Assembly (NCBI RefSeq): GCF_001983935.1
Contig: NZ_CP017641.1
Span: 7,304,001 to 7,368,000, forward strand
Direction of reading: 5' to 3'
Origin: Fuerstiella marisgermanici
GTDB taxonomy: Bacteria; Planctomycetota; Planctomycetia; Planctomycetales; Planctomycetaceae
Length of the DNA stretch: 64,000 bases
Within the stretch, counting starts at the first letter, position 1. Every line of letters begins with the position of its first letter. Both the position numbers and the translations under genes were made by a program. The notes beneath the pieces were generated by a model. It saw only the letters and a program-made list of their open reading frames with translations. It did no database searches and had not been told where the DNA came from. This document shows, piece by piece, positions 42,320 through 59,538 of this stretch.

Positions 42320-42393
42320 GGACCTATAGCTCAGTTGGCTAGAGCGCCACGTTGACATCGTGGAGGTCACAGGTTCGAGTCCTGTTAGGTCCA
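42320..42393 (+). tRNA. tRNA-Val (anticodon GAC)
   Basis: The acceptor arm GGACCTA pairs with TAGGTCC. The D arm is TAGCTCAGTTGGCTAGAGC. The anticodon stem CCACG/CGTGG encloses TTGACAT with anticodon GAC. The T arm contains GGTTCGAGTCC. The discriminator is A and CCA is not encoded. A tyrosine integrase gene lies 109 bp downstream, so this tRNA is the likely attachment site of the mobile element. Confidence 0.95.
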
Positions 42394-42400
42394 CTTCAGA

Positions 42401-42501: not shown

Positions 42502-43527
42502 ATGGCACGTCAACCAAAACCGTACTTCCGCAAGGCCCAAAATCGATGGGTCTGCACGATCGATGGTAGACGAATTACGCTCGGCAAAGACAAAGCTGCA
42601 GCGAAGCAAAAGTTCCACGGCCTCATGTTGGACCGGCGGAACGTCACGAGCGAGATTGTTACTATCTACGATCTCTCCCAGATCTACCTCGATTGGTGCG
42701 AGGCCAACCGATCTGCCGGAACGTACAAGAATCATCGGCGGTATCTCAAGGGCTTTATCGAGTCCATCGGTCGGACGGTGAGGATCGCCGCTCTGAAGAA
42801 GCATCAAGTTCTGAAGTGGTCTGAAACAAAGGGAACCTCCACCAGCCAGAATGATGCCATCTCGGTGGTTAAGCGGATGTTCAACTGGGCAATCGAACAA
42901 GAATATCTGGAGGCTAACCCGCTTCACGGGATCAAGAAGCCACCGAGAAGGCGGCGTGACATCGTTTACACACCGCAACAATGGAGACATATCCGCGAAC
43001 ATGCGACGGAGCCATTCTTGTCCCTGATTGATTTCATCTGGTCAACAGGCTGTAGGCCCCGAGAGGCACGCACGATCGAAGCTCGCCACATTCACGGCGA
43101 TACGGCAATCTTCCCAGGCGATGAGGCCAAGGGTGAGTCAACACGGGTTATCTTTCTGATTCCACAAGCAAAGGAAATCTTGGACCGTAACACACGAGAG
43201 GATGGACCTTTATTCCTCAACACACGTGGCAACCCTTGGACGAAAGATTCAATCAAGTGTCGGTTGAATCGTATTTCAAAGCGTGTCGGGTTCCGATGCG
43301 TGGCTTACGGAGCTCGTCATTCGTTCGCCACAAATGCGCTTATCAACGAAGTCGACCCTATTTCGATATCGCATCTGATGGGGCATAAGTCGCCGCGAAT
43401 GGTTGGTGAGGTTTATTCTCACTTGGCCAGAAACCCAGCGTTTCTCAAAAGGCAGGCACAAAAGGCCGTTGTGCAGGCTTCGAGCGACCATTTGAATTCA
43501 ACAGATCACGTTGCCTGCTCCGATTAG
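42502..43527 (+). CDS. Tyrosine recombinase/integrase
   Basis: A 341-aa integrase. An N-terminal SAM-like DNA-binding part (about 55-145) precedes the catalytic domain. The catalytic set is R185 (TGCRPREAR), K210 region, R272 (YGARHSF), H295 (LMGHKS) and the nucleophile Y305 (GEVYSHL). The first His of the usual HxxR box is Tyr (Y269), as occurs in some integrases of this phylum. It should insert the element at the tRNA-Val gene just upstream. ATG 42502 follows GGAGG at 9 bp. Confidence 0.92.
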   Translation: MARQPKPYFRKAQNRWVCTIDGRRITLGKDKAAAKQKFHGLMLDRRNVTSEIVTIYDLSQIYLDWCEANRSAGTYKNHRRYLKGFIESIGRTVRIAALKKHQVLKWSETKGTSTSQNDAISVVKRMFNWAIEQEYLEANPLHGIKKPPRRRRDIVYTPQQWRHIREHATEPFLSLIDFIWSTGCRPREARTIEARHIHGDTAIFPGDEAKGESTRVIFLIPQAKEILDRNTREDGPLFLNTRGNPWTKDSIKCRLNRISKRVGFRCVAYGARHSFATNALINEVDPISISHLMGHKSPRMVGEVYSHLARNPAFLKRQAQKAVVQASSDHLNSTDHVACSD

Positions 43528-45678: not shown

Positions 45679-45915
45679 ATGACTATCGCCGACAATCACG
45701 GGCAGTCGATCGGACCGATGCTCACGGTTTCAGAAGTTGCAAATCAACTCAATGTTTCGCGCGCACTAATCTATCGCGAAGTGAAATCCAAACGTCTTTC
45801 TGCATACCGGATTAGAGGTCGCATTCGGATCTCGACGATGGATCTGTCCCACTACCTTACGCAACAGCATGACCGCAGTACTGATGTTCTGCGACCCCAA
45901 AAAAAACACTTTTAG
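45679..45915 (+). CDS. Excisionase-like helix-turn-helix protein
   Basis: A 78-aa protein of the HTH_17/excisionase type: MLTVSEVANQLNVSRALIYR, then EVKSKRLSAYRIRGRIRIS (about 14-52). The winged-helix pattern VSEVANxLxVSxxxIYRxV and the RIRGRIRIS wing are typical. It may direct the integrase toward excision or repress the element. A GGAGG lies 13 bp upstream of the ATG. Confidence 0.75.
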   Translation: MTIADNHGQSIGPMLTVSEVANQLNVSRALIYREVKSKRLSAYRIRGRIRISTMDLSHYLTQQHDRSTDVLRPQKKHF

Positions 45916-46027: not shown

Positions 46028-46804
46028 ATGAGGAATCGATTGCTCAAACCACGGCCACGCTATTGCCATGCCGTTCTATGGCTGGCCGTAGTCTTGGCTA
46101 CCTCTGGATGTCAGGATCAAAAGAAGATTGCCGCAGAACGGAATCAGGCCATCGAAACGGCCTTGGCTAATCGGAACCTCCAGCATCAGCGGGATCTGCA
46201 GCAGGCCACTAAAGCGGCTGCAGCAGAAGCGGAGGCTGATGCGTTGAAGGCAGCTCAGCAGGCGGCAGCAGACGCGCGAACCGATGGTTTCCGGTCAGGA
46301 GAACTGGCCGGAAAGGCTGCTGTGCGAGAAGAGTTTGACACTAAGGTCGAGCTTGAGCGAAACAAAGCATTTGATCAGGGAAAGGCCATCGGACACTCGG
46401 AAGCGTCCGTGACGTACTTCGAAAAGGGAAAGCTACTGGGCGAGCAAACAGGACGCATCAATGGTAAGGCGGAAGCCGAAGAGAAACTGCGGCTTGCTTC
46501 AGAACTTGCCGTGCAAGAAGCAAAGGCGGAAGCAGAAAAACTCGGGCGGTTGGAAGGCATCGAAGAAGGACGGCAGCAGGCCAAGCGACACTCCCTGCTC
46601 GAAAAGAGCATTCTGGGAATCTGCGTCGCTGTTTTTATGACGGTCCTTGGCTTCTACCTGTTGCTTCGCCGTCAGGTGAGTCAACAGCCGTACGTCATCG
46701 TTCAATCTTCGCATCGAGTCGCTGACGAGGCACCTCTGACGTCTTACTTCATCTCTCCGGCTCCAACCGAGCAGCCGGAGATCATTGAACGAAGAGTGTC
46801 GTAG
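46028..46804 (+). CDS. Coiled-coil lipoprotein-like protein with C-terminal TM helix
   Basis: A 258-aa protein with a signal and candidate lipobox (VLATSGC, Cys 28). A long Ala/Glu/Lys-rich coiled coil runs from about 30 to 190 with repeated GK/GE turns (GELAGKAAVREEF, GKLLGEQTGRINGKAEA). A TM helix at about 194-213 (SILGICVAVFMTVLGFYLLL) and a 45-residue tail follow. A lipid anchor plus a C-terminal TM helix is an odd topology, so the N-terminus may be a plain signal anchor. It starts the membrane module with the MotA-like and VWA proteins. Confidence 0.7.
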   Translation: MRNRLLKPRPRYCHAVLWLAVVLATSGCQDQKKIAAERNQAIETALANRNLQHQRDLQQATKAAAAEAEADALKAAQQAAADARTDGFRSGELAGKAAVREEFDTKVELERNKAFDQGKAIGHSEASVTYFEKGKLLGEQTGRINGKAEAEEKLRLASELAVQEAKAEAEKLGRLEGIEEGRQQAKRHSLLEKSILGICVAVFMTVLGFYLLLRRQVSQQPYVIVQSSHRVADEAPLTSYFISPAPTEQPEIIERRVS

Positions 46805-46911
46805 CGATCCGCAATCACCACGATGTTCGTTTTGAGGCACCGCTGTTGGCGTACCAGCCAATCACAGCGGGCAGTGGTTTACGTTTTACTCTCAAGAATG
46901 AAGGAAAACTT

Positions 46912-47619
46912 ATGCAGTCGCCGTCTGAACCGTTATTCACGCGATGGAGGGCTACACACTTGTGGCAACCTTTCTCGCTCATCGTTTGTTTTGCTTTGAC
47001 AGCCGCCCTTGGCATTTGGATTGAGCAGGCAACTCTGCTGCTCACTAGCTTTCTGGTCATCTGTGCGCTTGGTGGTCAATGGGTTGTTTACAACTTCTGG
47101 TCGGGGCACAACCGCCAAATCCACGCTACAGAAATCGACATCGACCGTTGTCTGCGAATGACTGCACAACAGGTCCGGGGATTGCCGGGAGGTGAGCGAG
47201 CCTCGATCTTTCTTCAGATACTAAAACTCGTCATCAACCGTGCCGAATCCAAGCGAGGCATCGAGCATCACGCAATCCTCGCCGCCTTTCGAAATCGTGC
47301 TCTCGAAAAGCCTCGATGCATTCACCGTCTTGGCAAGACGATGGTGAGTTTCGGAATGGCAGGCACGTTAGTTGGGCTATCGATGACGATGTATGCGGCG
47401 AGTGACGTAGTTGAGAATGCAGAAAGCGTTCAGGCACTCACGGCGGCGCTCGTTCCGGCTTTCGGCGGCCTCAGCATGGCGTTCTCGACAACTCTGGTCG
47501 CTGTGTTGCTGGGCACCGTCTGGCTGGGTTCACAAGCCCAACATTGTCATGACGCGATCAATCTGTACTTCGACCAACTCGATGGCTACCTCGGCGGCTT
47601 TCAATTCGGCGACCGCTAA
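46912..47619 (+). CDS. MotA/TolQ/ExbB-like channel subunit
   Basis: A 235-aa membrane protein. ATG 46912 follows GAAGGA at about 9 bp; a longer frame from 46846 adds 22 residues. Two TM helices lie near residues 20-62. A cytoplasmic segment follows, then the MotA/TolQ/ExbB signature: helices at about 146-163 (SFGMAGTLVGLSMTMYAA) and about 180-205 (LVPAFGGLSMAFSTTLVAVL). These two helices carry the Gly, Thr and Ser residues that line proton channels in the family. It sits 46 bp before the VWA gene, whose N-terminal TM helix resembles MotB/ExbD. Confidence 0.78.
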   Translation: MQSPSEPLFTRWRATHLWQPFSLIVCFALTAALGIWIEQATLLLTSFLVICALGGQWVVYNFWSGHNRQIHATEIDIDRCLRMTAQQVRGLPGGERASIFLQILKLVINRAESKRGIEHHAILAAFRNRALEKPRCIHRLGKTMVSFGMAGTLVGLSMTMYAASDVVENAESVQALTAALVPAFGGLSMAFSTTLVAVLLGTVWLGSQAQHCHDAINLYFDQLDGYLGGFQFGDR

Positions 47620-47665
47620 TTGAATTCTCTTCACTCAATGTCCCTTTTTAACCCGGAGACCTGTC

Positions 47666-48646
47666 ATGTCAGACATCGTCGAACTTGAAGAAGATGACGG
47701 ATTCGGCCTTGTGATGGCCGACATCCTGTTCAACACAATTGGGCTGGGTGCCCTGTTGATGATGGTACTGATTGTCAATCAGGGAGAAAAAGCTAAGCAG
47801 GCGACCGACGTTGGCTCGCTGATGTCGCTTATTGTCGATCAGCGACGGCAAATCGAGATGGTGAGCAAGAATCTGCAAGAGGCCCAGAAGGAAAATGACC
47901 GCCAGCGCGAGGCCGCGAGCAAACAGCGGAAGCAGCGAAGCGATGAAACGGCGCAGTACGTACAGGACATTGAAAAGCAGCGGAGCGACGCAGAGGACCG
48001 GGCCGACGCGGCTGAGGAGACACTGGGGAAACTCAAGGAAGCTGATCAGGTGCGGCTGTACTTTCTTGTTGACACGTCAGCCAGCATGTCTGCAGGCATC
48101 GATGAGGTTCGTCACACGCTAAAAATGCTATCGAGGACGATGCCTCAGGCTCTGACATCGGTGGAAGTCGGAGTGATCGGATTCCGATCTGGAAAACTCA
48201 CCGAATTTGAACTGCATCGCATTGGCCAACACGGGCATCCAGCCGACCTCACGCAGCTTGAGACGTTTCTGGACGAGTTACAACCAGTCTCCGGTAACAC
48301 GTGTGTCGACCTCGCCATCACGAAGGCGATTCAGTCACTTGGCAGCGATCCAAATTATACGGGCAGCGAAATTATTTTGCTCTGTGCCGATGTCGGACCG
48401 GGAGACTCCGCCGGTTATCACCAGTCGGCAGGGATATCCGTGATCAACCGGGTCAGGTCATGGGCACAAGCAGCGCCGGACAGGCGTCGATTTCTGTCGT
48501 TCTACACGGCGTCAAAGGACGACACTCATCTCGCATTTTTCAAAGGTCTGGGCGGCGTAACGCCGTCCAGTCGGTTTAGCAGACAACTGGCCTCGATGTT
48601 TCCGCTGTGTTTCGAAGCCGCATTTGAACGAAAGACTCAGCTATGA
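47666..48646 (+). CDS. VWA-domain protein with MotB/ExbD-like TM segment
   Basis: A 326-aa protein. An acidic N-terminus (ELEEDDG) is followed by one TM helix at about 16-38 with a conserved-place Asp (D19 in VMADILFNTIGLGALLMMVL), as in MotB, ExbD and ZorB. A long charged coiled coil occupies about 45-128. The VWA domain has the MIDAS motif LVDTSASMSAG (D136, S138, S140) and the later Thr in SGNTCVD. A VWA fold thus replaces the usual peptidoglycan-binding OmpA domain. It overlaps the next gene by 4 bp. Confidence 0.8.
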   Translation: MSDIVELEEDDGFGLVMADILFNTIGLGALLMMVLIVNQGEKAKQATDVGSLMSLIVDQRRQIEMVSKNLQEAQKENDRQREAASKQRKQRSDETAQYVQDIEKQRSDAEDRADAAEETLGKLKEADQVRLYFLVDTSASMSAGIDEVRHTLKMLSRTMPQALTSVEVGVIGFRSGKLTEFELHRIGQHGHPADLTQLETFLDELQPVSGNTCVDLAITKAIQSLGSDPNYTGSEIILLCADVGPGDSAGYHQSAGISVINRVRSWAQAAPDRRRFLSFYTASKDDTHLAFFKGLGGVTPSSRFSRQLASMFPLCFEAAFERKTQL

Positions 48647-48852
48647 AACCCAAGAGTCGACATCGTCCCGCACCCATTGCCGTTGAAGACCCCATGCAAT
48701 CACGTGGGGTCTACCGATCTTCCCCTCCGCAATCGCGGCCGCAGAATCAGCCCGCTCGATCAAGCCGACTGGGAATTGGCGAGCAGTTGTTCTTTCTGTT
48801 TGGAGCCACGTTGGTTCTGTTTCTGGCCCTTTGGTTTTACTTCCAAGCCTGA
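48643..48852 (+). CDS. Small single-TM protein coupled to VWA gene
   Basis: A 69-aa protein: a Pro/Gln/Arg-rich N-terminus and one C-terminal TM helix (GEQLFFLFGATLVLFLALWF). The ATG overlaps the VWA stop (ATGA), which strongly suggests translation coupling. The topology is cytoplasmic tail with a terminal anchor. It may be an accessory subunit of the MotA-like/VWA complex. Confidence 0.7.
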   Translation: MKPKSRHRPAPIAVEDPMQSRGVYRSSPPQSRPQNQPARSSRLGIGEQLFFLFGATLVLFLALWFYFQA

Positions 48853-48885: not shown

Positions 48886-50568
48886 GTGAGTCAGCCCTTT
48901 GAACAATCCAAGCCTCGTGCCCCCCGTCCGTGGCCCGTTAGCGCCGTTGAGGCAGGCGGCTGGGCCTATGCCGCTCAGTATCTCCATTCACTGGTGCAGG
49001 CTGGGACGGAATGGGCAATACCCGGAAGTTTGCTTGCCGCAGGACTGGCCGCAAAGAACATCATTCGCGGATTTGACGACCGTTCAAAGTTCAAGGAAGA
49101 AAACCGGAAGCGAGGACGGCTCAAGGAAACGGCACGCAAGCAGGCGGACGCCCGATTTGCAACGTCCGGGGAGATTGCGCTGGCAAACTTGTTCGCTCCG
49201 CAGGGAATTTTTCTCGGCACCTATCGCACGAAACGTGGGAAGCTTCGGGATCTCCGGTATGACGGGGACTGTAGCGTCAACGTATGCGGATTTCCGGGTT
49301 CCCAAAAGTCGCTTTCCATCGCCTTGCCGACCATCCTGCTGGATATCGGCCATTCGCGTATCGTCAACGATCCCAGTGGTGAACTCTATGCGCTTTCGCG
49401 TGACTGGCTCATTCGTCGCGGACACATAGTAAAAGTGATTTCACCGTGGGCCTCAGAGGTTCAATCGATGCTGGGCATTCCCGTTGAGGATGCTGGTTTT
49501 GATTTTTTCGCGGACTTCGATCCTGAAGCTGCTCCCTCATCAATTCGTAGCCAGATCATGCGCCGCTCGGAATTGCTTATTCCGGGTAAGCCGCAAGGTG
49601 TTGCGGATGAACGCTCAAAGTTCTTCCGCGATCACGGAAGGATCTTACTGGAGTGCCTGACGCTGATTATTGCAGCAACCGGGAAAAAGCCGACTCTGCC
49701 GATGCTACGGCGGTTGCTAATGGAAGGCCTCGCGGCGATGGAACAACGGTTCGATGCGGCAACAAGGTCGGACGCTTTTGGCGGAGTGCTGGCAGAACTG
49801 GCCGCCAGTCTGCTGGGCACAATGCAGCAGGCCCCGGAGCAGTTCGCGGGATATTTCGGAGTTGCTCAGGCGGCAACAACAATCTTCGATCATTTCGGTG
49901 AGATGGGTGAACACGCCGCAGGCAAAACGTTCGATCCCTATACGCTGAAAGACGAACAACCGACCACTGCTTTTGTCATCTATCCGAACGAAAAATCTCG
50001 AACCCACTCCGCCGGCGTCAATCTGACGCTATCCCACATTTTCGAAACCGTTGCTTCTGATCCTCGCAGGAAAAGAGTCACGGCGATTATCGACGAAGCG
50101 GCAAGTTGTGGCTTCCTTGTCAATTATCTGTCCGCATTAAACGAATACAGAAAATACGGCCTGCGTATTCTGTCTCTCTGGCAAGACCTTCTCGGTGGTC
50201 AAACAGAATCGATCTACTCTCGTTCAGGGACAAAGCAAATCATTGCGGCGGGAGAAGTGCTGGTGGTATGCGGAGCTCGCGAACCAGACACGCTCGACAT
50301 GCTTAGCAAAGCCACCGGCCAAGTGGCACTGGAAGACTTATCCCTCACTGACCGCAGCCGTTTGAGCGATGCGGTCCCGGATCAGACGATGGGACAATCG
50401 AGCAAGACTCGGCCATTGATGTACGCCGACGAAATCCGTCGCATCCCTTTTGATCAGGCTCTGATTCTGGCTTCCAACTTACGCCCCATCATCGCCTCCA
50501 AGACGCCCTATTGGACCCGCCCCGACTGGCGACACATGGTCGGGCACAATCCCTACTACAAAGGATGA
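48886..50568 (+). CDS. VirD4/TraG-like coupling ATPase
   Basis: A 560-aa protein from GTG 48886. It has a hydrophobic N-terminal stretch, then a TraG/VirD4-type ATPase: GIFLGTYRTKRGKLRDLRYD, the P-loop GFPGSQKS (135-142), DPSGELYALSRDWL, and Walker B AIIDEAASCGFL. The later SLWQDLLGG and RSGTKQIIAAG fit family motifs. In known systems this ATPase links the relaxosome to the transfer channel. The P-loop has Gln where Gly is normal (GxxGxGKS), so nucleotide use should be checked. No VirB genes are near. Confidence 0.85.
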   Translation: MSQPFEQSKPRAPRPWPVSAVEAGGWAYAAQYLHSLVQAGTEWAIPGSLLAAGLAAKNIIRGFDDRSKFKEENRKRGRLKETARKQADARFATSGEIALANLFAPQGIFLGTYRTKRGKLRDLRYDGDCSVNVCGFPGSQKSLSIALPTILLDIGHSRIVNDPSGELYALSRDWLIRRGHIVKVISPWASEVQSMLGIPVEDAGFDFFADFDPEAAPSSIRSQIMRRSELLIPGKPQGVADERSKFFRDHGRILLECLTLIIAATGKKPTLPMLRRLLMEGLAAMEQRFDAATRSDAFGGVLAELAASLLGTMQQAPEQFAGYFGVAQAATTIFDHFGEMGEHAAGKTFDPYTLKDEQPTTAFVIYPNEKSRTHSAGVNLTLSHIFETVASDPRRKRVTAIIDEAASCGFLVNYLSALNEYRKYGLRILSLWQDLLGGQTESIYSRSGTKQIIAAGEVLVVCGAREPDTLDMLSKATGQVALEDLSLTDRSRLSDAVPDQTMGQSSKTRPLMYADEIRRIPFDQALILASNLRPIIASKTPYWTRPDWRHMVGHNPYYKG

Positions 50569-50572
50569 ATCA

Positions 50573-50905
50573 ATGTTTGGCTTGTTTCGACTGGAGCATA
50601 CGAGTCCGATTGCCCGCTACTTTCGAAAGCTACGGCGACGGCTTCGCAATCTCCTGATCGTTGTCGCGGTTCTAGCGGCAATGGTTGTGTTTTGGGGGGT
50701 GCCGCACTGCCAGTGGACCTACAAGTATCCCGCCGCAGGCGGTGTTCGCGTGCCCGATGCGGATGAAAAAATGTCAGCGTGGTACTGGAACCCGGTCTCC
50801 GGGTGGAAACACGTCACGCGTGATCAGTATGGCCCGCTTACGTTCGTGTTGTTCATTCCGGTTACCGATTGCTATGGCGACGATGACAACGTTTTCAACT
50901 TTTGA
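50573..50905 (+). CDS. Small membrane protein following the coupling ATPase
   Basis: A 110-aa protein with a basic N-terminus (RYFRKLRRRLRN), one TM helix at about 27-45 (LLIVVAVLAAMVVFWGV) and a periplasmic domain rich in Trp and Tyr. It starts 4 bp after the VirD4-like gene. No domain is recognised. It may support the transfer complex. Confidence 0.65.
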   Translation: MFGLFRLEHTSPIARYFRKLRRRLRNLLIVVAVLAAMVVFWGVPHCQWTYKYPAAGGVRVPDADEKMSAWYWNPVSGWKHVTRDQYGPLTFVLFIPVTDCYGDDDNVFNF

Positions 50906-51745: not shown

Positions 51746-52411
51746 ATGACACCCGCTATCGAAGCTGCTTGTGCTGGACTTGAGTCTCAGCTGACGCCTA
51801 TCCGTGAGAGTCGCGTCAAGTGGACAGCCAAACAAGCCGGACTACAAACTGACCTGCTCCAGCTAGACTCGGCTTTCCAAAAGCTGGAACGCCCGGTGAA
51901 ACAAACCGGGAAAAAGTCGTCGGGGCAAACGGCGCGCGAGGTCCATGACTCTCCTGTGCTTGAAGCGGCTCGGCAAGCGATCGAGCGGCTCCGAATGCCA
52001 GTCCGAGAGAAGTTAGAGCAGATCGCTGCAAAGGTCGACGGTCTGCGTACTCAGGAGCTTCCTTTGGAAGCCGCTATCAAAGCTCTCAAGACTCCAGCAA
52101 AGGAGCCGTCAAAGAAACGCCAGAAGCCAAGCGGGTCTAACGTAAAGCAAAAGGACGTCATTGAGGCATGCGTCAAGGTACTGAAAGAAGAGCATGCCCT
52201 GAAAGGTGCCGAGCTGGAGCAGAAAGTCCGTCTCTATCTGAAGAAGGATCGAGGGCTGAGCCTGCTCGGCTATGCCATGCGGTTTAAGGAAGCGATGAAA
52301 ACTGACGTCTTCGCTATCATCGAAGATGGTGTCGTCGTTCTATCGGAATCTGTAGCGGTGGAAGAAAACGCGGCTGTTGCCGCTTCTGCGTCTGCGACTG
52401 TTGCAAATTGA
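51746..52411 (+). CDS. Hypothetical helical protein upstream of relaxase
   Basis: A 221-aa protein. The first about 125 residues are coiled coil. A basic linker follows, and the C-terminal part (VKQKDVIEACVKVLKEEHAL, LSLLGYAMRFKEAMK) looks like a small winged-helix-type fold. It is preceded by CTCTTCCAATCGT (51713-51725), which also occurs in the long inverted repeat at 58361. It may be a relaxosome accessory or regulator; the function is unknown. Confidence 0.6.
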   Translation: MTPAIEAACAGLESQLTPIRESRVKWTAKQAGLQTDLLQLDSAFQKLERPVKQTGKKSSGQTAREVHDSPVLEAARQAIERLRMPVREKLEQIAAKVDGLRTQELPLEAAIKALKTPAKEPSKKRQKPSGSNVKQKDVIEACVKVLKEEHALKGAELEQKVRLYLKKDRGLSLLGYAMRFKEAMKTDVFAIIEDGVVVLSESVAVEENAAVAASASATVAN

Positions 52412-52582: not shown

Positions 52583-55438
52583 ATGCTCACACTGACCCAG
52601 TCAACGAGTGCCGCAGGCACTGCCAAATACTTCGAAACGCTTTCTGCAGGGGACTATTATCTCGGTGAACGTGTCGTTGCTCTGTGGCGTGGCAAGACTG
52701 CCGGGCGGCTCGGGTTGACGGAAGGAAGTGAGCTAACCAAAGAGCAGTTCATGGCGTTGCTGGCGGGCAGGAATCCGGCCAACGGAAAGCCGCTGACACA
52801 ACGAAAGGTAAAGAATCGTAGACCTGGGATGGACATGACGCTAAGCGTCCCGAAGTCGGTCTCACTGGCATTTGCCATCAATAAAGATGAAGCCGTACTC
52901 ACGGCTTTCCGTGACGCTGTAAACACGACGATGGCGGAAGATGTCGAGCCGCTCATGCACCGGCGGGTTCGCGACGGGCAATACAGCGGCACGAAACAAC
53001 GGACCCAAACCGGCAACATGCTATGGGCCGGGTTTGAGCATAAGACTTCCCGGCCGGTCGGTGACCTCGTCGACCCCCAGCTTCATGCCCATTGTTTTGT
53101 CTTCAACGTGACAGAACAGGACGGGCAATTCTACGCAGCGGAGCTTGAAGAGATCGTGCGACGCAAAGCGAGACTCGAAGCGGGTTTCTATGCAAGGTTG
53201 GCGAAGAATCTGGAACAGAGCGGCTATCGGACCGTCCGAACCCGCAATCCTAAAACCGGACGACTGAGCTTCGAGATTGAAGGAATTGAGCGTTCGACAA
53301 TCGAGAAGTTCTCGACTCGAACAAAGCAGATCGAAGAACACGCGACCAAACACGGCATTACCGACGCTGCTCAAAAGGCTCAGCTTGGAAAAAAGCTGCG
53401 AGAAAAGAAAGACACGGGCACACCACTGGACTCGCTGCATGTTCATTGGGATAGCCGACTTACGGACGCGGAACGCGATGCGTTTCGAACGCTTCGCGGG
53501 GACGATGGGAAAAAACAAGCGGGTTTAATCTCTCCAGAAAAAGCCGTCCGCTTTGCCCTTGACCACCATTTCGAGAATGAGTCCACAGTAGAAGAGCATC
53601 AGTTGGTTGCCACGGCTCTACGCTACGCAGTGAAGCAGAGTCCTCAAGCCATCGAAGCGGCCCTGAATCATCCAGACATCATTCGGCAAGAGAAGGATGC
53701 GTTGGGAGCATCCCGTCGCTTTGTCACAACTCACGTCGTGCTTGAGCAAGAACGTTTCATGATTGAATTTGCCCGAGATGGGCGAGGAACAAAGAAAACG
53801 CTTTGTCCGGGGACACACGAATTTCAGCGAGACTATTTGAACAGTCAGCAAAGAGCAGTGGTGCAACACATCCGCGACAGCAGGGATCAAACGATCGTTG
53901 TGACTGGTGGTGCGGGTACCGGAAAAACGGCCACAATGAGTGAAGCGGCGGAAGCAATTGGCAGTGCCGGAAAGCAGGTCTTCGCTTGTGCTCCTTCAAC
54001 GTCCGCAACGGAGGTTCTCAAAGAAAGCGGGTTTGCGGAAGCAAAGACAGTTGAGCATCTGATCCGCAATACCAAATTGCATGACCGGCTTAGAGATCAA
54101 GTCATGCTGGTTGATGAAGCGGGCTTGCTAGACGCACGTTCCATGACGTCGCTCTTTCAAATCGCTGAAAAGCAAAATGCTCGCATCATCCTGGTTGGTG
54201 ACCCAAGACAACACGCGAGCCCAAAGCGAGGCGAGAGCCTCACGATCATTGAGAAGGAAGCGGGACTCAAGATTGCTCGGCTTGATAAGATCCAAAGACA
54301 GAAGGGAGATTATCGGGAGGCTGTTGAGCTGATCAGTCGTGGCAACGAAATCATTGACCAAGAGACGAAAGCGACGGGGTTACTGGCCGGCTTTGACAAG
54401 CTTTACGAAATGGGCAAAGTGATTGAGCTCAGAGACGAAGAGCGGCACGTCAAGCTTGCCGAAAGCTACATAGAGGCAAGCGAACGTGGAAAGTCCACAA
54501 TCGTCGTCGCCCCTACGCACGCTGAAGGCCGTGCGGTGACAGAAACCATTCGCGAGCGACTGCGAGAGAATGGGACGATCGCTACCGAAGAGAAACCGGT
54601 CTTGCAGTTACGGAGTCTGCATCTGACGAACGCCGAGAAGTCCGAGAGGTACAGCTACGATCAGGACGGCTTAATCGTGCAGTTCCACCAGAACGCCAAG
54701 GGAGGATTTACACGCGGCCAACGCTACCGAGTGGTCAAAACCGAGGGCACCCTTCCCGGGCTTGTTCCTTTCGATAAACCAAAAACAACGCCAAGGATCA
54801 TTCCGACTTCTCAAGCTGAAAGGTTTGAAGTGTACCGGGAAGATGCGATCGGGCTTTCTGTGGGTGATACCGTCCGCTTCACGCTTGGCGGATCTGGAAT
54901 CGATAAGAAGAGCCGCATTGCTAACGGTCGAATTGATGAAATCAAAGCGTTTCAGGTGAATGGAGATCTCGTGCTAAAGAGTGGCATTGTGGTCAGTCGC
55001 AACTATGGTCACCTGAATCACGGCTTCGTCGTAACCAGCCACTCCAGTCAAGGCCACACAAGGGACATTGCCATCGCCGCGATGGGATCGGACTCTTTGC
55101 CCGCAGTCAACGCTCGTCAAGCCTACGTGACCATCAGCCGCGGTCGCCACGACGTGAAGTTGTTTGTCGACGACAAAGCGGCCGTTCGGCGGGCAATCCA
55201 GAGAGCTGGGACGCAGCTTTCCGCTACGGAATTGATGGCGAAAGCGACCGGCCAGCAGCTTTCGCATGAGACGAAACGCACGGCGGACAGAACACTGGCC
55301 ATGGAACACCGCCGTAGAACCCTGCGGGATCGCGTGCGACGTTGGTGGCAGAGCTTTGGACCGAGAGTTGGTCAGGCTATCGCGAATAGCCGCCCTGTGT
55401 CGCCGTCCCCGGCTCCGCCTGAATTAAGGAGATGCTAA
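52583..55438 (+). CDS. MobF-family relaxase-helicase (TraI/TrwC-like)
   Basis: A 951-aa protein. The relaxase domain (about 1-300) has tyrosines near the N-terminus (Y16, Y25, Y26) and the histidine set H153 with H168 and H170 (PQLHAHCFVFN), matching the 3H metal site of MobF enzymes. The helicase part has Walker A GGAGTGKT (442-449), VMLVDEAGLLD, GDPRQHA and a C-terminal NYGHLNHGFVVTSHSSQGHT motif. It nicks oriT, stays linked through a Tyr and unwinds the strand for transfer. The gene ends 4 bp before a 127-aa protein gene. A decayed relative lies at 58931-59141. Confidence 0.92.
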   Translation: MLTLTQSTSAAGTAKYFETLSAGDYYLGERVVALWRGKTAGRLGLTEGSELTKEQFMALLAGRNPANGKPLTQRKVKNRRPGMDMTLSVPKSVSLAFAINKDEAVLTAFRDAVNTTMAEDVEPLMHRRVRDGQYSGTKQRTQTGNMLWAGFEHKTSRPVGDLVDPQLHAHCFVFNVTEQDGQFYAAELEEIVRRKARLEAGFYARLAKNLEQSGYRTVRTRNPKTGRLSFEIEGIERSTIEKFSTRTKQIEEHATKHGITDAAQKAQLGKKLREKKDTGTPLDSLHVHWDSRLTDAERDAFRTLRGDDGKKQAGLISPEKAVRFALDHHFENESTVEEHQLVATALRYAVKQSPQAIEAALNHPDIIRQEKDALGASRRFVTTHVVLEQERFMIEFARDGRGTKKTLCPGTHEFQRDYLNSQQRAVVQHIRDSRDQTIVVTGGAGTGKTATMSEAAEAIGSAGKQVFACAPSTSATEVLKESGFAEAKTVEHLIRNTKLHDRLRDQVMLVDEAGLLDARSMTSLFQIAEKQNARIILVGDPRQHASPKRGESLTIIEKEAGLKIARLDKIQRQKGDYREAVELISRGNEIIDQETKATGLLAGFDKLYEMGKVIELRDEERHVKLAESYIEASERGKSTIVVAPTHAEGRAVTETIRERLRENGTIATEEKPVLQLRSLHLTNAEKSERYSYDQDGLIVQFHQNAKGGFTRGQRYRVVKTEGTLPGLVPFDKPKTTPRIIPTSQAERFEVYREDAIGLSVGDTVRFTLGGSGIDKKSRIANGRIDEIKAFQVNGDLVLKSGIVVSRNYGHLNHGFVVTSHSSQGHTRDIAIAAMGSDSLPAVNARQAYVTISRGRHDVKLFVDDKAAVRRAIQRAGTQLSATELMAKATGQQLSHETKRTADRTLAMEHRRRTLRDRVRRWWQSFGPRVGQAIANSRPVSPSPAPPELRRC

Positions 55439-55442
55439 TACG

Positions 55443-55826
55443 ATGACACTTGATTCTGCTTCCGTTCACTTTCTGCCAAAAGCCGCGTTGCCCGACGCCG
55501 ACACTTCAGCCGCGTGGCAGCTTCTCGACACCGGTACGTCGATGCCCATGATGTTTCAGCTACATCTCAGATCGGGTGAAGTCATTTTTTTTCCCTACTC
55601 AGACTTGCGAGAAGTGCGTCTGCGTGATGCCGGATTCATCCAGCTGGCTTTGTTGGGTGTCGCACAATATCGCGTATCAATCTCCGGGCGTCTGCTCAAG
55701 GAACTGGCTACGGTCCTCGGTCTCGGGCGTGTGCGTTCGATGCACGTCGCCGATCCTCGTGATATCTCCCGCCCCGAAGACATGCCTACAATTGAAGCCA
55801 TTGACATCGAAGTCGTAACCGACTGA
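55443..55826 (+). CDS. Relaxase-linked hypothetical protein (copy 1)
   Basis: A 127-aa protein with a conserved LDTGTSMPMMFQLHLRSGEV, YSDLREVRLRDAGFIQLALL and GRVRSMHVADPRD. No known domain is recognised. The gene starts 4 bp after the relaxase stop, and a close paralog (59146-59538) lies just after a relaxase remnant, so the pair relaxase plus this protein is a stable unit. It may be a relaxase accessory. The remainder of the protein is beta-rich. Confidence 0.7.
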   Translation: MTLDSASVHFLPKAALPDADTSAAWQLLDTGTSMPMMFQLHLRSGEVIFFPYSDLREVRLRDAGFIQLALLGVAQYRVSISGRLLKELATVLGLGRVRSMHVADPRDISRPEDMPTIEAIDIEVVTD

Positions 55827-56713: not shown

Positions 56714-57703
56714 TCAAGACAGCTCGAGTTGCTTCGTCGTCGGCTGTTGCACAAGATCGATTTTGATAGGACAAGGCAGATTTGGCTCCGCATCTGTCGG
56801 TGGCGGATTCGTCGCTTCAGGGAAACGTGTCCCAAGGATCCAGTCGGCCGCTTTTTGAGCCGCTCCTGCCGCTTTGATGACGAGACGCTTGTCACCTTTG
56901 AGCTGCTTTCTCCAGTTGTCAATATATGAGGCAGCTGGTTGAATGGTTGATTCACTGATTCCGGCGGTTGCCGCGAGAAACGCGGCAGACATTTCAGCCA
57001 CAAGCTCCTCGCGACTGTAGTCCGGGCTACCAAAGGCTGTCAGGTTGGTATCGAGACCGCGATTTAAACGACTGCTGTGTCCAGTGCTGTGGGAGATCTC
57101 GTGAAACAAAGTCGCGTAGTAGCTTTCAGGACTTTCAAATCGATCGGGTTCTGGCATCACGACCTGATCGGTCGAGGGGCGATACAGAGCCTGAGTTCCC
57201 TTGAACTTGACGTCTGGCCCCTCGCAGTAGCCGGTGATGATATCTTCCGCCGCCTTCAATGGCTCGAACGGAGGTGTGTTGGGATCGGGTTTGGCAACGT
57301 CCGGCGGATCGATTCCATCGCACTGTTCGGCGTTGAAGACGTTATAATGACGCAGTACTGGCGGATTGGTTTTTTCGCCGGTCTCCTTGTCTTCCTTCTC
57401 AATCTGCTTCCAGAGAACAACAAGCGAAGACGTTTCGCCTTTGCGGACATTTCCACCTTTGGCCAAAGCTTGTTTAAAGGTCAGCCAGTAATCTGACGAA
57501 AAGCCGCGTTGCATCGCCTCGACGGCCAACAAGAAAACATTCACCCCGCGATAGGGTTTCCGGGACTGCAGATTTCTCGGCCACCCGTCCCCTCCTCTGC
57601 GTCGGATCGGGCTTCGCCAAGGAACGGTTCCAGCATCCATGAGCTCGAGAATTCGGTCGGTGACTTCCTGATAAATATCACGACGCTGTTTTCGTTTTGC
57701 CAT
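56714..57703 (-). CDS. ArdC-like antirestriction protein (zincin metallopeptidase domain)
   Basis: A 329-aa protein. The N-terminal domain (about 8-125: DIYQEVTDRILELMDAGTVP, NVFLLAVEAMQRGFSSDYWL) matches the ArdC single-strand DNA-binding domain. The zincin domain has LFHEISHSTGHSSRLNR (H201, E202, H205) and a later EELVAEM. ArdC proteins protect incoming mobile DNA from host restriction. ATG 57703 is chosen over an in-frame start at 57829, since the added 42 residues are unlike the family. A CAGTCTT/AAGACTG dyad lies just upstream. Confidence 0.88.
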   Translation of the reverse strand: MAKRKQRRDIYQEVTDRILELMDAGTVPWRSPIRRRGGDGWPRNLQSRKPYRGVNVFLLAVEAMQRGFSSDYWLTFKQALAKGGNVRKGETSSLVVLWKQIEKEDKETGEKTNPPVLRHYNVFNAEQCDGIDPPDVAKPDPNTPPFEPLKAAEDIITGYCEGPDVKFKGTQALYRPSTDQVVMPEPDRFESPESYYATLFHEISHSTGHSSRLNRGLDTNLTAFGSPDYSREELVAEMSAAFLAATAGISESTIQPAASYIDNWRKQLKGDKRLVIKAAGAAQKAADWILGTRFPEATNPPPTDAEPNLPCPIKIDLVQQPTTKQLELS

Positions 57704-57726
57704 CGCTCCTCTCAAAGTCTGACCGG

Positions 57727-57747
57727 CAGTCTTATCACTAAAGACTG
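57727..57747 (-). promoter_or_regulatory. Candidate operator upstream of ardC-like gene
   Basis: CAGTCTT (57727-57733) and AAGACTG (57741-57747) form a perfect 7-bp dyad with a 7-base centre, starting 24 bp before the ArdC-like start codon. Direct AGTCTGAC repeats flank it. Confidence 0.45.
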
Positions 57748-57832
57748 TGACAGTCTGACGGTTGGATTGTTGCAGTGCCTCGTTGTGCCACAACGGCGGC
57801 GACTGCGTCAACACAAAATCGGTGACCACCTT

Positions 57833-58930: not shown

Positions 58931-59141
58931 AGCTATGATCGCGATGGCTTGGTTGTACAGTTTCACCAAAATGCCAAAGGCGGGTTTGTTCGCGGCCGCC
59001 GCTACCGCGTCCTGACGAGCGAATGTGCGGGAACGGGTGCGTCGGTGGTGGCAGAATTTCGGGCCTCAGGTCCGCCAACGCCTCACGAACAACCGCCCAA
59101 TTTCGCCGGTCCCCACTCCGCCCGGATTAAGGAGAAGCTAA
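58931..59141 (+). pseudogene. Remnant of a MobF relaxase gene
   Basis: The translation begins SYDRDGLVVQFHQNAKGGF and matches the intact relaxase near residue 695 (YSYDQDGLIVQFHQNAKGGF, in part). It then shifts frame and continues as RVRRWWQNFGPQV to PTPPGLRRS and a stop, matching the last about 35 residues of the relaxase. A deletion of about 200 codons plus a frameshift joined the two parts. The stop is 4 bp before the paralog of the relaxase-linked protein, the same spacing as in the intact pair. Confidence 0.85.
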
Positions 59142-59145
59142 CGCC

Positions 59146-59538
59146 ATGTCACCCAATTCTGCATCGGTTCACTTTTTGCCGAAGGCTGGCCTTCCGAAGG
59201 TCGACGATTCAGCCGCATGGCAGATTCTCGACACCGGGGCTTCAATGCCCATGATGTTTCAACTGCATCTGAGATCGGGCGAAGTTGTTTCTTTTCCCTA
59301 TTCAGATTTGCGGGAAGTCCGACTTCGAGATGCCGGCTTCATCCAGCTGGCCCTGCTGGGAGTGGCACACTACCGAATTTCGATTTCCGGTCGCCTGCTA
59401 ACAGAACTGGCCACGCTGCTCGGCCTCGGTCGCGTGCGTTCGTTGCATGTGGCCGACCCCCGCGACGTCTCTCGGCCTGAAGAAATACCTACGATTGAAG
59501 AGATCACCATTGAGGTCATCGCAGACGAGATGGTGTAG
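59146..59538 (+). CDS. Relaxase-linked hypothetical protein (copy 2)
   Basis: A 130-aa paralog of the 127-aa protein at 55443-55826, with LDTGASMPMMFQLHLRSGEV, YSDLREVRLRDAGFIQLALL and GRVRSLHVADPRD shared. Copy 2 lies behind a relaxase remnant, yet its own frame is intact and well kept, which argues that the protein remains under selection. The function is unknown. Confidence 0.7.
   Translation: MSPNSASVHFLPKAGLPKVDDSAAWQILDTGASMPMMFQLHLRSGEVVSFPYSDLREVRLRDAGFIQLALLGVAHYRISISGRLLTELATLLGLGRVRSLHVADPRDVSRPEEIPTIEEITIEVIADEMV

Follow-up and report, generated by a model that had tools for sequence, protein, structure and literature searches.

Membrane motors that join a TolQ-like protein to a 'TPH-vWA' protein have been described as carrying a conserved Asp, as having no tolR/exbD gene and as being of unknown function (PMC12204202; Mol Biol Evol 2025). 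As presented there, these motors predominantly have heterologous pairs of VWA genes and belong mainly to Proteobacteria and Verrucomicrobia. Here we analyse a four-gene module of this kind at positions 46028-48852 of a 64,000-nucleotide stretch of the planctomycete Fuerstiella marisgermanici (NZ_CP017641.1; the whole stretch is referred to as the window), where it lies in an integrated mobile element directly before the gene of a VirD4-type coupling protein (type IV coupling protein, T4CP). The module is best read as an energised device that assists the DNA-transfer machinery of this element or takes its place. A preliminary description of this DNA had proposed a MotA-type channel with an Asp-bearing, VWA-headed partner as a candidate new architecture; the channel, its partner, the mobile element and the adjoining transfer genes were all found again, whereas the novelty of the architecture as such has to be given up in view of the published TolQ-like and 'TPH-vWA' motors. 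With the architecture already known from PMC12204202, what is new is the link of the motor to elements with a relaxase and a T4CP in which no type IV secretion system (T4SS) was recognised, and in the literature searched we found no paper joining a VWA/TolQ motor to conjugation. The published motors thereby gain a concrete functional setting, i.e., mobile-element DNA transfer.

The likeness to the published motors lies in a TolQ-type pore gene that adjoins the gene of a VWA protein (7/7 loci), in an ExbD/TolR-like helix with a conserved Asp ahead of the VWA fold, and in the Thr/Ser residues of the pore. The module differs in having one VWA gene per locus (by profile), in its planctomycete hosts and in the T4CP beside it in all seven loci; it has no heterologous VWA pair, and such pairs are predominant, not obligatory, in PMC12204202. 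No second ExbD-like open reading frame (ORF) was noticed by eye among the listed ORFs of the module loci, on which no ExbD profile was run. With MotAB, ExbBD and TolQR the module shares the pore signature of transmembrane (TM) helices 3 and 4 and an Asp near the start of a TM helix, as in ExbD, TolR and MotB, and it differs in the coiled coil and VWA domain of the partner and in its mobile-element setting. Zorya ZorAB likewise combines a MotA-type subunit with a TM partner, but the module has neither the ZorA tail nor a detected peptidoglycan-binding domain. The element itself resembles integrative mobilizable and conjugative elements (MobF, VirD4) in its tRNA insertion, integrase, relaxase and T4CP, and differs from them in the motor module beside the T4CP and in that no VirB4-type gene was found in the host.

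Composition of the module

All four ORFs of the preliminary description were recovered, co-directional and close together, and their location between a Xis-like gene and the T4CP gene was borne out. The genes on which the argument rests are as follows.

45679..45915, + strand: Xis-like HTH_17 protein (Pfam HTH_17, 1.7e-12)
46028..46804, + strand: lipoprotein-like coiled-coil protein with a C-terminal TM helix
46912..47619, + strand: MotA/TolQ/ExbB-type subunit, 235 amino acids (aa) from the likelier ATG (the ORF opens at 46846)
47666..48646, + strand: VWA protein with an Asp-bearing TM helix (D19), a coiled coil and a VWA domain with the metal-ion-dependent adhesion site (MIDAS) DTSAS
48643..48852, + strand: single-TM protein of 69 aa, whose ORF overlaps the stop codon of the VWA gene (ATGA)
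48886..50568, + strand: VirD4-type coupling protein, T4CP (Pfam T4SS-DNA_transf, 5.8e-35)
52583..55438, + strand: MobF (TrwC/TraI-type) relaxase-helicase (Pfam TrwC, 2.8e-65; NCBIfam MobF, 4e-60)

The ORF of the MotA-like protein (46846-47619) begins with TTG, and the ATG at 46912 is preceded by GAAGGA. We consider 46912 the likelier start because the resulting 235 aa agree with most homologues (234, 235, 235 and 235 aa; 261 aa in L182, with L179 cut by the contig end). Pfam MotA_ExbB matched the window protein below its cut-off of 22.9 bits (E=8.9e-4, 19.4 bits), and three of six homologues exceeded that cut-off (39.4, 42.5 and 33.7 bits), two others scoring 12.6 and 13.6 bits and one giving no match. 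A three-sequence profile of the MotA-like protein was compared with the PDB, and 11 of its 12 matches at E<=1 were MotA-family chains (best 5.3e-4), including MotA, PomA and, as the top match, a MotA/TolQ/ExbB chain of 696 aa from 8vvn, a ZorAB complex. The TM3 motif [GA]-x-x-G-[TS] is present in all seven MotA-like proteins, ending in Thr in four and in Ser in three, and the TM4 column of TolQ's Thr holds Thr in five and Ser in two, both of which have a Thr one place earlier. These positions were read from an alignment with E. coli K-12 TolQ and ExbB, and the pore role of the Thr/Ser residues follows the account in PMC12204202. Judged by profile and pore residues alike, the protein is a predicted member of the MotA/TolQ/ExbB proton channel family.

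The VWA protein is recognised by Pfam VWA_2 (8.9e-10). Its structure model comprises a helix at 13-38, a long helix at 49-120 and then an alpha/beta domain (overall predicted local distance difference test score, pLDDT, 64), with which Foldseek retrieved VWA domains from 5.4e-8. D19 is the sole acidic residue of the predicted TM stretch, and the MIDAS consists of DTSAS together with T212 and D242. Conservation of the Asp had been set as a test beforehand, and a single acidic residue, an Asp, stands near the start of the TM stretch in 7/7 proteins, counted over the predicted 19-residue stretch (in L179, where the VWA gene is split over two frames, it was taken from the first). The expectation that the MIDAS is conserved held for D-x-[ST]-x-S and the third-motif Asp, both seen in 7/7, and failed for the MIDAS Thr in two loci. 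The VWA ORF of L182 is over-long at its start, the true start being judged to lie ~115 residues in.

The first-gene protein has a Cys after TSG in a non-canonical lipobox, is coiled-coil-like and has its TM helix at 190-208; it had no sequence match, and the gene is not conserved across the module loci. L077 has a similarly built protein in this place, with no detectable sequence similarity to that of the window; in L070, L180 and L181 the place is taken by a helical, soluble protein, none was seen in L182, and the L179 contig begins inside MotA. Behind the VWA gene, 7/7 loci have a small gene for a one-TM protein; it overlaps the VWA stop codon in L179 as it does in the window, where 33 bases separate it from the T4CP start.

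Relatives of the module and their neighbours

The order MotA, VWA, small TM protein and T4CP is kept in all seven loci that bear the pair (the window, L077, L070, L179, L180, L181 and L182), some of which have one or two extra small genes ahead of the T4CP. The pairing proposed in the preliminary description is upheld in that a MotA-type gene precedes every strong VWA homologue found. The seven loci are spread over at least three families, and identity to the window is 16-24% for MotA and 20-28% for VWA (five relatives; L182 not included). Between L180 and L181 the rates of nonsynonymous and synonymous substitution (dN/dS) were 0.096/0.677 (~0.14) for MotA and 0.070/0.716 (~0.10) for VWA, and both genes are thus maintained under purifying selection. 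A MobF relaxase accompanies the module in the window, L070, L077, L180 and L181, and L182 has a MobA/VirD2-type relaxase (Pfam Relaxase, 1.6e-12); the relaxase type was read in six of the seven loci, the remaining contig being too short. Since it occurs with two relaxase types, the module tracks the T4CP and not one relaxase.

These relatives were reached by several routes. T4CP and VWA searches within the family led to G095 and G064. Among the best 80 of 134 loci retrieved with the relaxase alignment, the module was present in L077 (Roseimaritima sediminicola JC651) and in L070, whose contig is also the one found in G064, and the notion that it is universal in such MobF elements was dropped, the count remaining the same with filters off. 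Of 397 genomes of the class scanned with a VWA profile, 27 had matches at E<=1e-6; the strong matches fell in the genome of the window, G064, G694, G625 and G668, the last three being newly found and each having the order MotA-like, VWA, T4CP. A T4CP profile run on 392 genomes of the phylum gave four matches at E<=1e-30, i.e., the window, G095, G260 and G317. G260 (L182) carries the module, and its MotA-like gene, overlooked by the MotA profile under default filters, was recognised by its build and, once the filters were switched off, by that profile (E 1.5e-5). In G317 (L183:11661-14424), which has the same kind of T4CP as the window, and in G095 (L064:13273-16080), the module slot is taken by a 4-TM protein and by an exported protein whose C-terminus is VWA-like, the former without a Pfam match in L064. 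The exported protein of G317 was matched by the module-VWA profile (E 3e-8) yet by no Pfam model, and that of G095 was missed by the VWA profile and has a Pfam VWA match of 19.9 bits, below the cut-off, with a visible DTSAS.

The possibility that a VWA gene stands ahead of every T4CP of the window's type was likewise rejected, as what precedes the T4CP in L067 and L071 (L067:3374-4825 and L071:3583-5166, Pfam being run on L071 only) is a related lipoprotein with a different C-terminal region, in which no VWA domain was recognised. Because the locally built T4CP profile missed T4CPs that Pfam detected in L068, L074 and L076, we make no claim of T4CP absence for the remaining loci. Of 38 more distant T4CP places, 27 were inspected with short flanks, and neither a MotA nor a VWA gene was seen at any of these. 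Furthermore, a single-sequence search of genome contigs with the window VWA protein yielded no relatives, viral contigs searched with the relaxase alignment yielded none, and plasmids gave no VWA or MotA match. When the MotA protein alone was searched against the phylum, most matches were other MotA-family proteins, aligned over TM3-TM4. Weak VWA-profile matches adjoin a MotA match in L005, L006, L009 and L018; in L006:1441-3577 and L009:60-2205 a MotA-type gene has an Asp-helix partner with a different outer region.

Transfer, defence or cargo

We give a probability of about 0.5 to the reading that the MotA/VWA pair is a proton-driven motor that serves the element's DNA transfer alongside the adjoining T4CP. 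In such a motor, an inner-membrane pore of MotA-like subunits would encircle the helices of the VWA subunits, possibly in the 5:2 arrangement suggested in the preliminary description, Asp19 would be protonated within the Thr/Ser-lined pore and the VWA stalk would in turn be rotated or pulled. A stalk moved by protons is suggested by the combination of a MotA-type pore lined with Thr and a helix that bears an Asp, by comparison with MotAB, ExbBD and TolQR and with the AlphaFold 3 (AF3) models presented in PMC12204202. The periplasmic VWA heads, having a MIDAS, would grip a protein partner via the metal site, candidate ligands being the recipient envelope, an outer membrane partner or the T4CP complex. 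The recurrent place before the T4CP, with two relaxase types, points to a role in transfer, in which the motor may steady the contact between mating cells, open a passage through the envelope or supply energy for it, or power the T4CP-relaxase complex. All of this would take place in elements where no VirB4-type secretion channel was recognised.

PF19044, the model of the VirB4/TraC-type ATPases, matched none of the 14 tested hosts of related elements (0/6 and 0/8 further). Six of these carry the module, namely the host of L077 and G000, G064, G625, G668 and G694. PF03135, the only model that covered the host of L182, matched 0/8 hosts. The control of PF19044 is positive in 7/14 genomes and that of PF03135 in 1/14. 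Across the phylum PF19044 exceeded its cut-off in 19/392 genomes, so that the model is able to detect such genes there, and the 25 matching genomes all belong to the same phylum and none to the same class or family. The hosts thus show no VirB4-type ATPase such as a self-transmissible element would be expected to have, other channel genes not having been searched for; in the rest of the 57-kb region, seven proteins were scanned by Pfam. With no VirB4-type gene found in the tested hosts, the question arises by what means relaxase- and T4CP-bearing elements of planctomycetes move.

Several observations weigh against a transfer motor. The module is rare, occurring in 2 of the best 80 relaxase loci (of 134, many of them cut by contig ends), and strong VWA matches (E<1e-40) were present in 5/397 genomes of the class. 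L067 and L071 share the T4CP type yet lack both a MotA gene and any recognised VWA domain, and the module is therefore dispensable or replaceable. For the MotA and Asp-helix pairs of L006 and L009, no T4CP was noticed in the 3.5-kb stretch. L077 and L179 are the loci that lack the MIDAS Thr, and the model of the MotA-like protein is poor (pLDDT 61), with TolQ chains as its best Foldseek matches (E 0.014, TM-score ~0.46). Synteny is no proof of joint function. The low base rate of PF19044 in the phylum leaves its absence from the 14 hosts only suggestive, and mobilizable elements can encode their own T4CP and borrow the channel of another element. The bolder proposal that relaxase and T4CP work with small membrane proteins and a MotA/VWA rotor driven by protons in place of a T4SS, giving DNA transfer free of a VirB4-type channel, is one that we hold to be quite doubtful.

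The preliminary description had left transfer and defence side by side; transfer is now the better supported of the two, because the T4CP stays beside the module whichever of two relaxase types is present. It seems unlikely that the pair is a Zorya-like defence or exclusion device, a motor that would set off an effector on sensing, at the envelope, phage or a related element coming in. What speaks for it is that PADLOC ZorA models are the best library matches of the MotA-like protein, weakly and over the TM3-TM4 region only (E 2.4e-5), that the 8vvn chain tops its PDB matches, and that the 57-kb element has defence-type genes elsewhere (a Piwi-domain protein and two ArdC), and beyond these no positive evidence was found. 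The MotA-like protein has no long cytoplasmic tail (235 aa against the 648-1063 positions of the ZorA models), no peptidoglycan-binding domain was found on its VWA partner (PADLOC, Pfam), the other three module proteins had no PADLOC match, and no recognised Zorya effector stands beside the module, the PADLOC scan covering the four module proteins and the T4CP only. That the neighbour kept in 7/7 loci is a T4CP also counts against defence. It counts less against an exclusion role, as exclusion systems can be linked to transfer genes.

Equally, there is little to recommend an ordinary host-type TPH-vWA envelope motor carried as cargo, its position by the T4CP being due to chance or mere co-transcription. 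Motors of this type are, according to PMC12204202, detected widely and without an assigned function, and MotA-type genes with an Asp-helix partner exist elsewhere in planctomycete genomes; cargo would, however, be expected to vary in place, and the slot of the module is the same in elements from at least three families, at identities of 16-28% and whichever of two relaxase types is present. We regard it as improbable that the element is simply mobilizable and relies on a visiting conjugative channel, with the module adapting the T4CP to this channel or to the envelope of planctomycetes, since, although integrase, relaxase and T4CP without a channel suit the mobilizable class and VirB4-like genes exist in the phylum, PF19044 was lacking in the tested hosts and its matches lie outside their class and family.

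The integrated element

The element is inserted at tRNA-Val (42320-42394), and a 44-bp direct repeat, with two copies in the genome, flanks an integrated region of ~57 kb (one element or several in tandem) that extends ~36 kb beyond the window. It thus has the integrase and the direct repeats at a tRNA gene that characterise integrative elements. The VWA protein had no match in any of seven genomes of the same genus, which fits horizontal gain. Its further features are listed below.

42350..42393, + strand: attL, 44-bp direct repeat equal to the 3' half of tRNA-Val
42502..43527, + strand: tyrosine-recombinase integrase (Pfam Phage_integrase, 3.1e-13)
50573..50905, + strand: 110-aa TM protein, by sequence, behind the T4CP in five related loci
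51746..52411, + strand: 221-aa helical protein with relatives in nine other loci
55443..55826, + strand: 127-aa protein, behind the relaxase in related loci
window 56714-57829, - strand: ArdC-type antirestriction gene 1, in the integrated region
L190:10771-11763, - strand: ArdC-type antirestriction gene 2, in the integrated region
L190:14738-17143 (window frame ~73738-76143), - strand: 801-aa Piwi-domain protein (Pfam 29.4 bits, barely above the cut-off)
window frame ~85251-98978, - strand: ORF of 4575 aa, close to where the integrated region ends on the right
G000:C1:7403788-7403831 (window frame ~99788-99831): partner copy of the 44-bp repeat, outside the window

The Piwi-domain protein inside the element is a possible prokaryotic Argonaute. 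Further along the integrated region, Pfam recognised a Toprim/DUF3991 protein and an RPA-type replication initiator. The MobF relaxases that are 34-54% identical to that of the window (L067-L146) come mostly from planctomycetes and, at the lower end, also from Bacteroidota. At window 58949-59538 the end of the relaxase gene and the 127-aa gene are present once more in truncated form, with 77% DNA identity between 59026-59500 and 55323-55797, and this stretch is a remnant of a related element.

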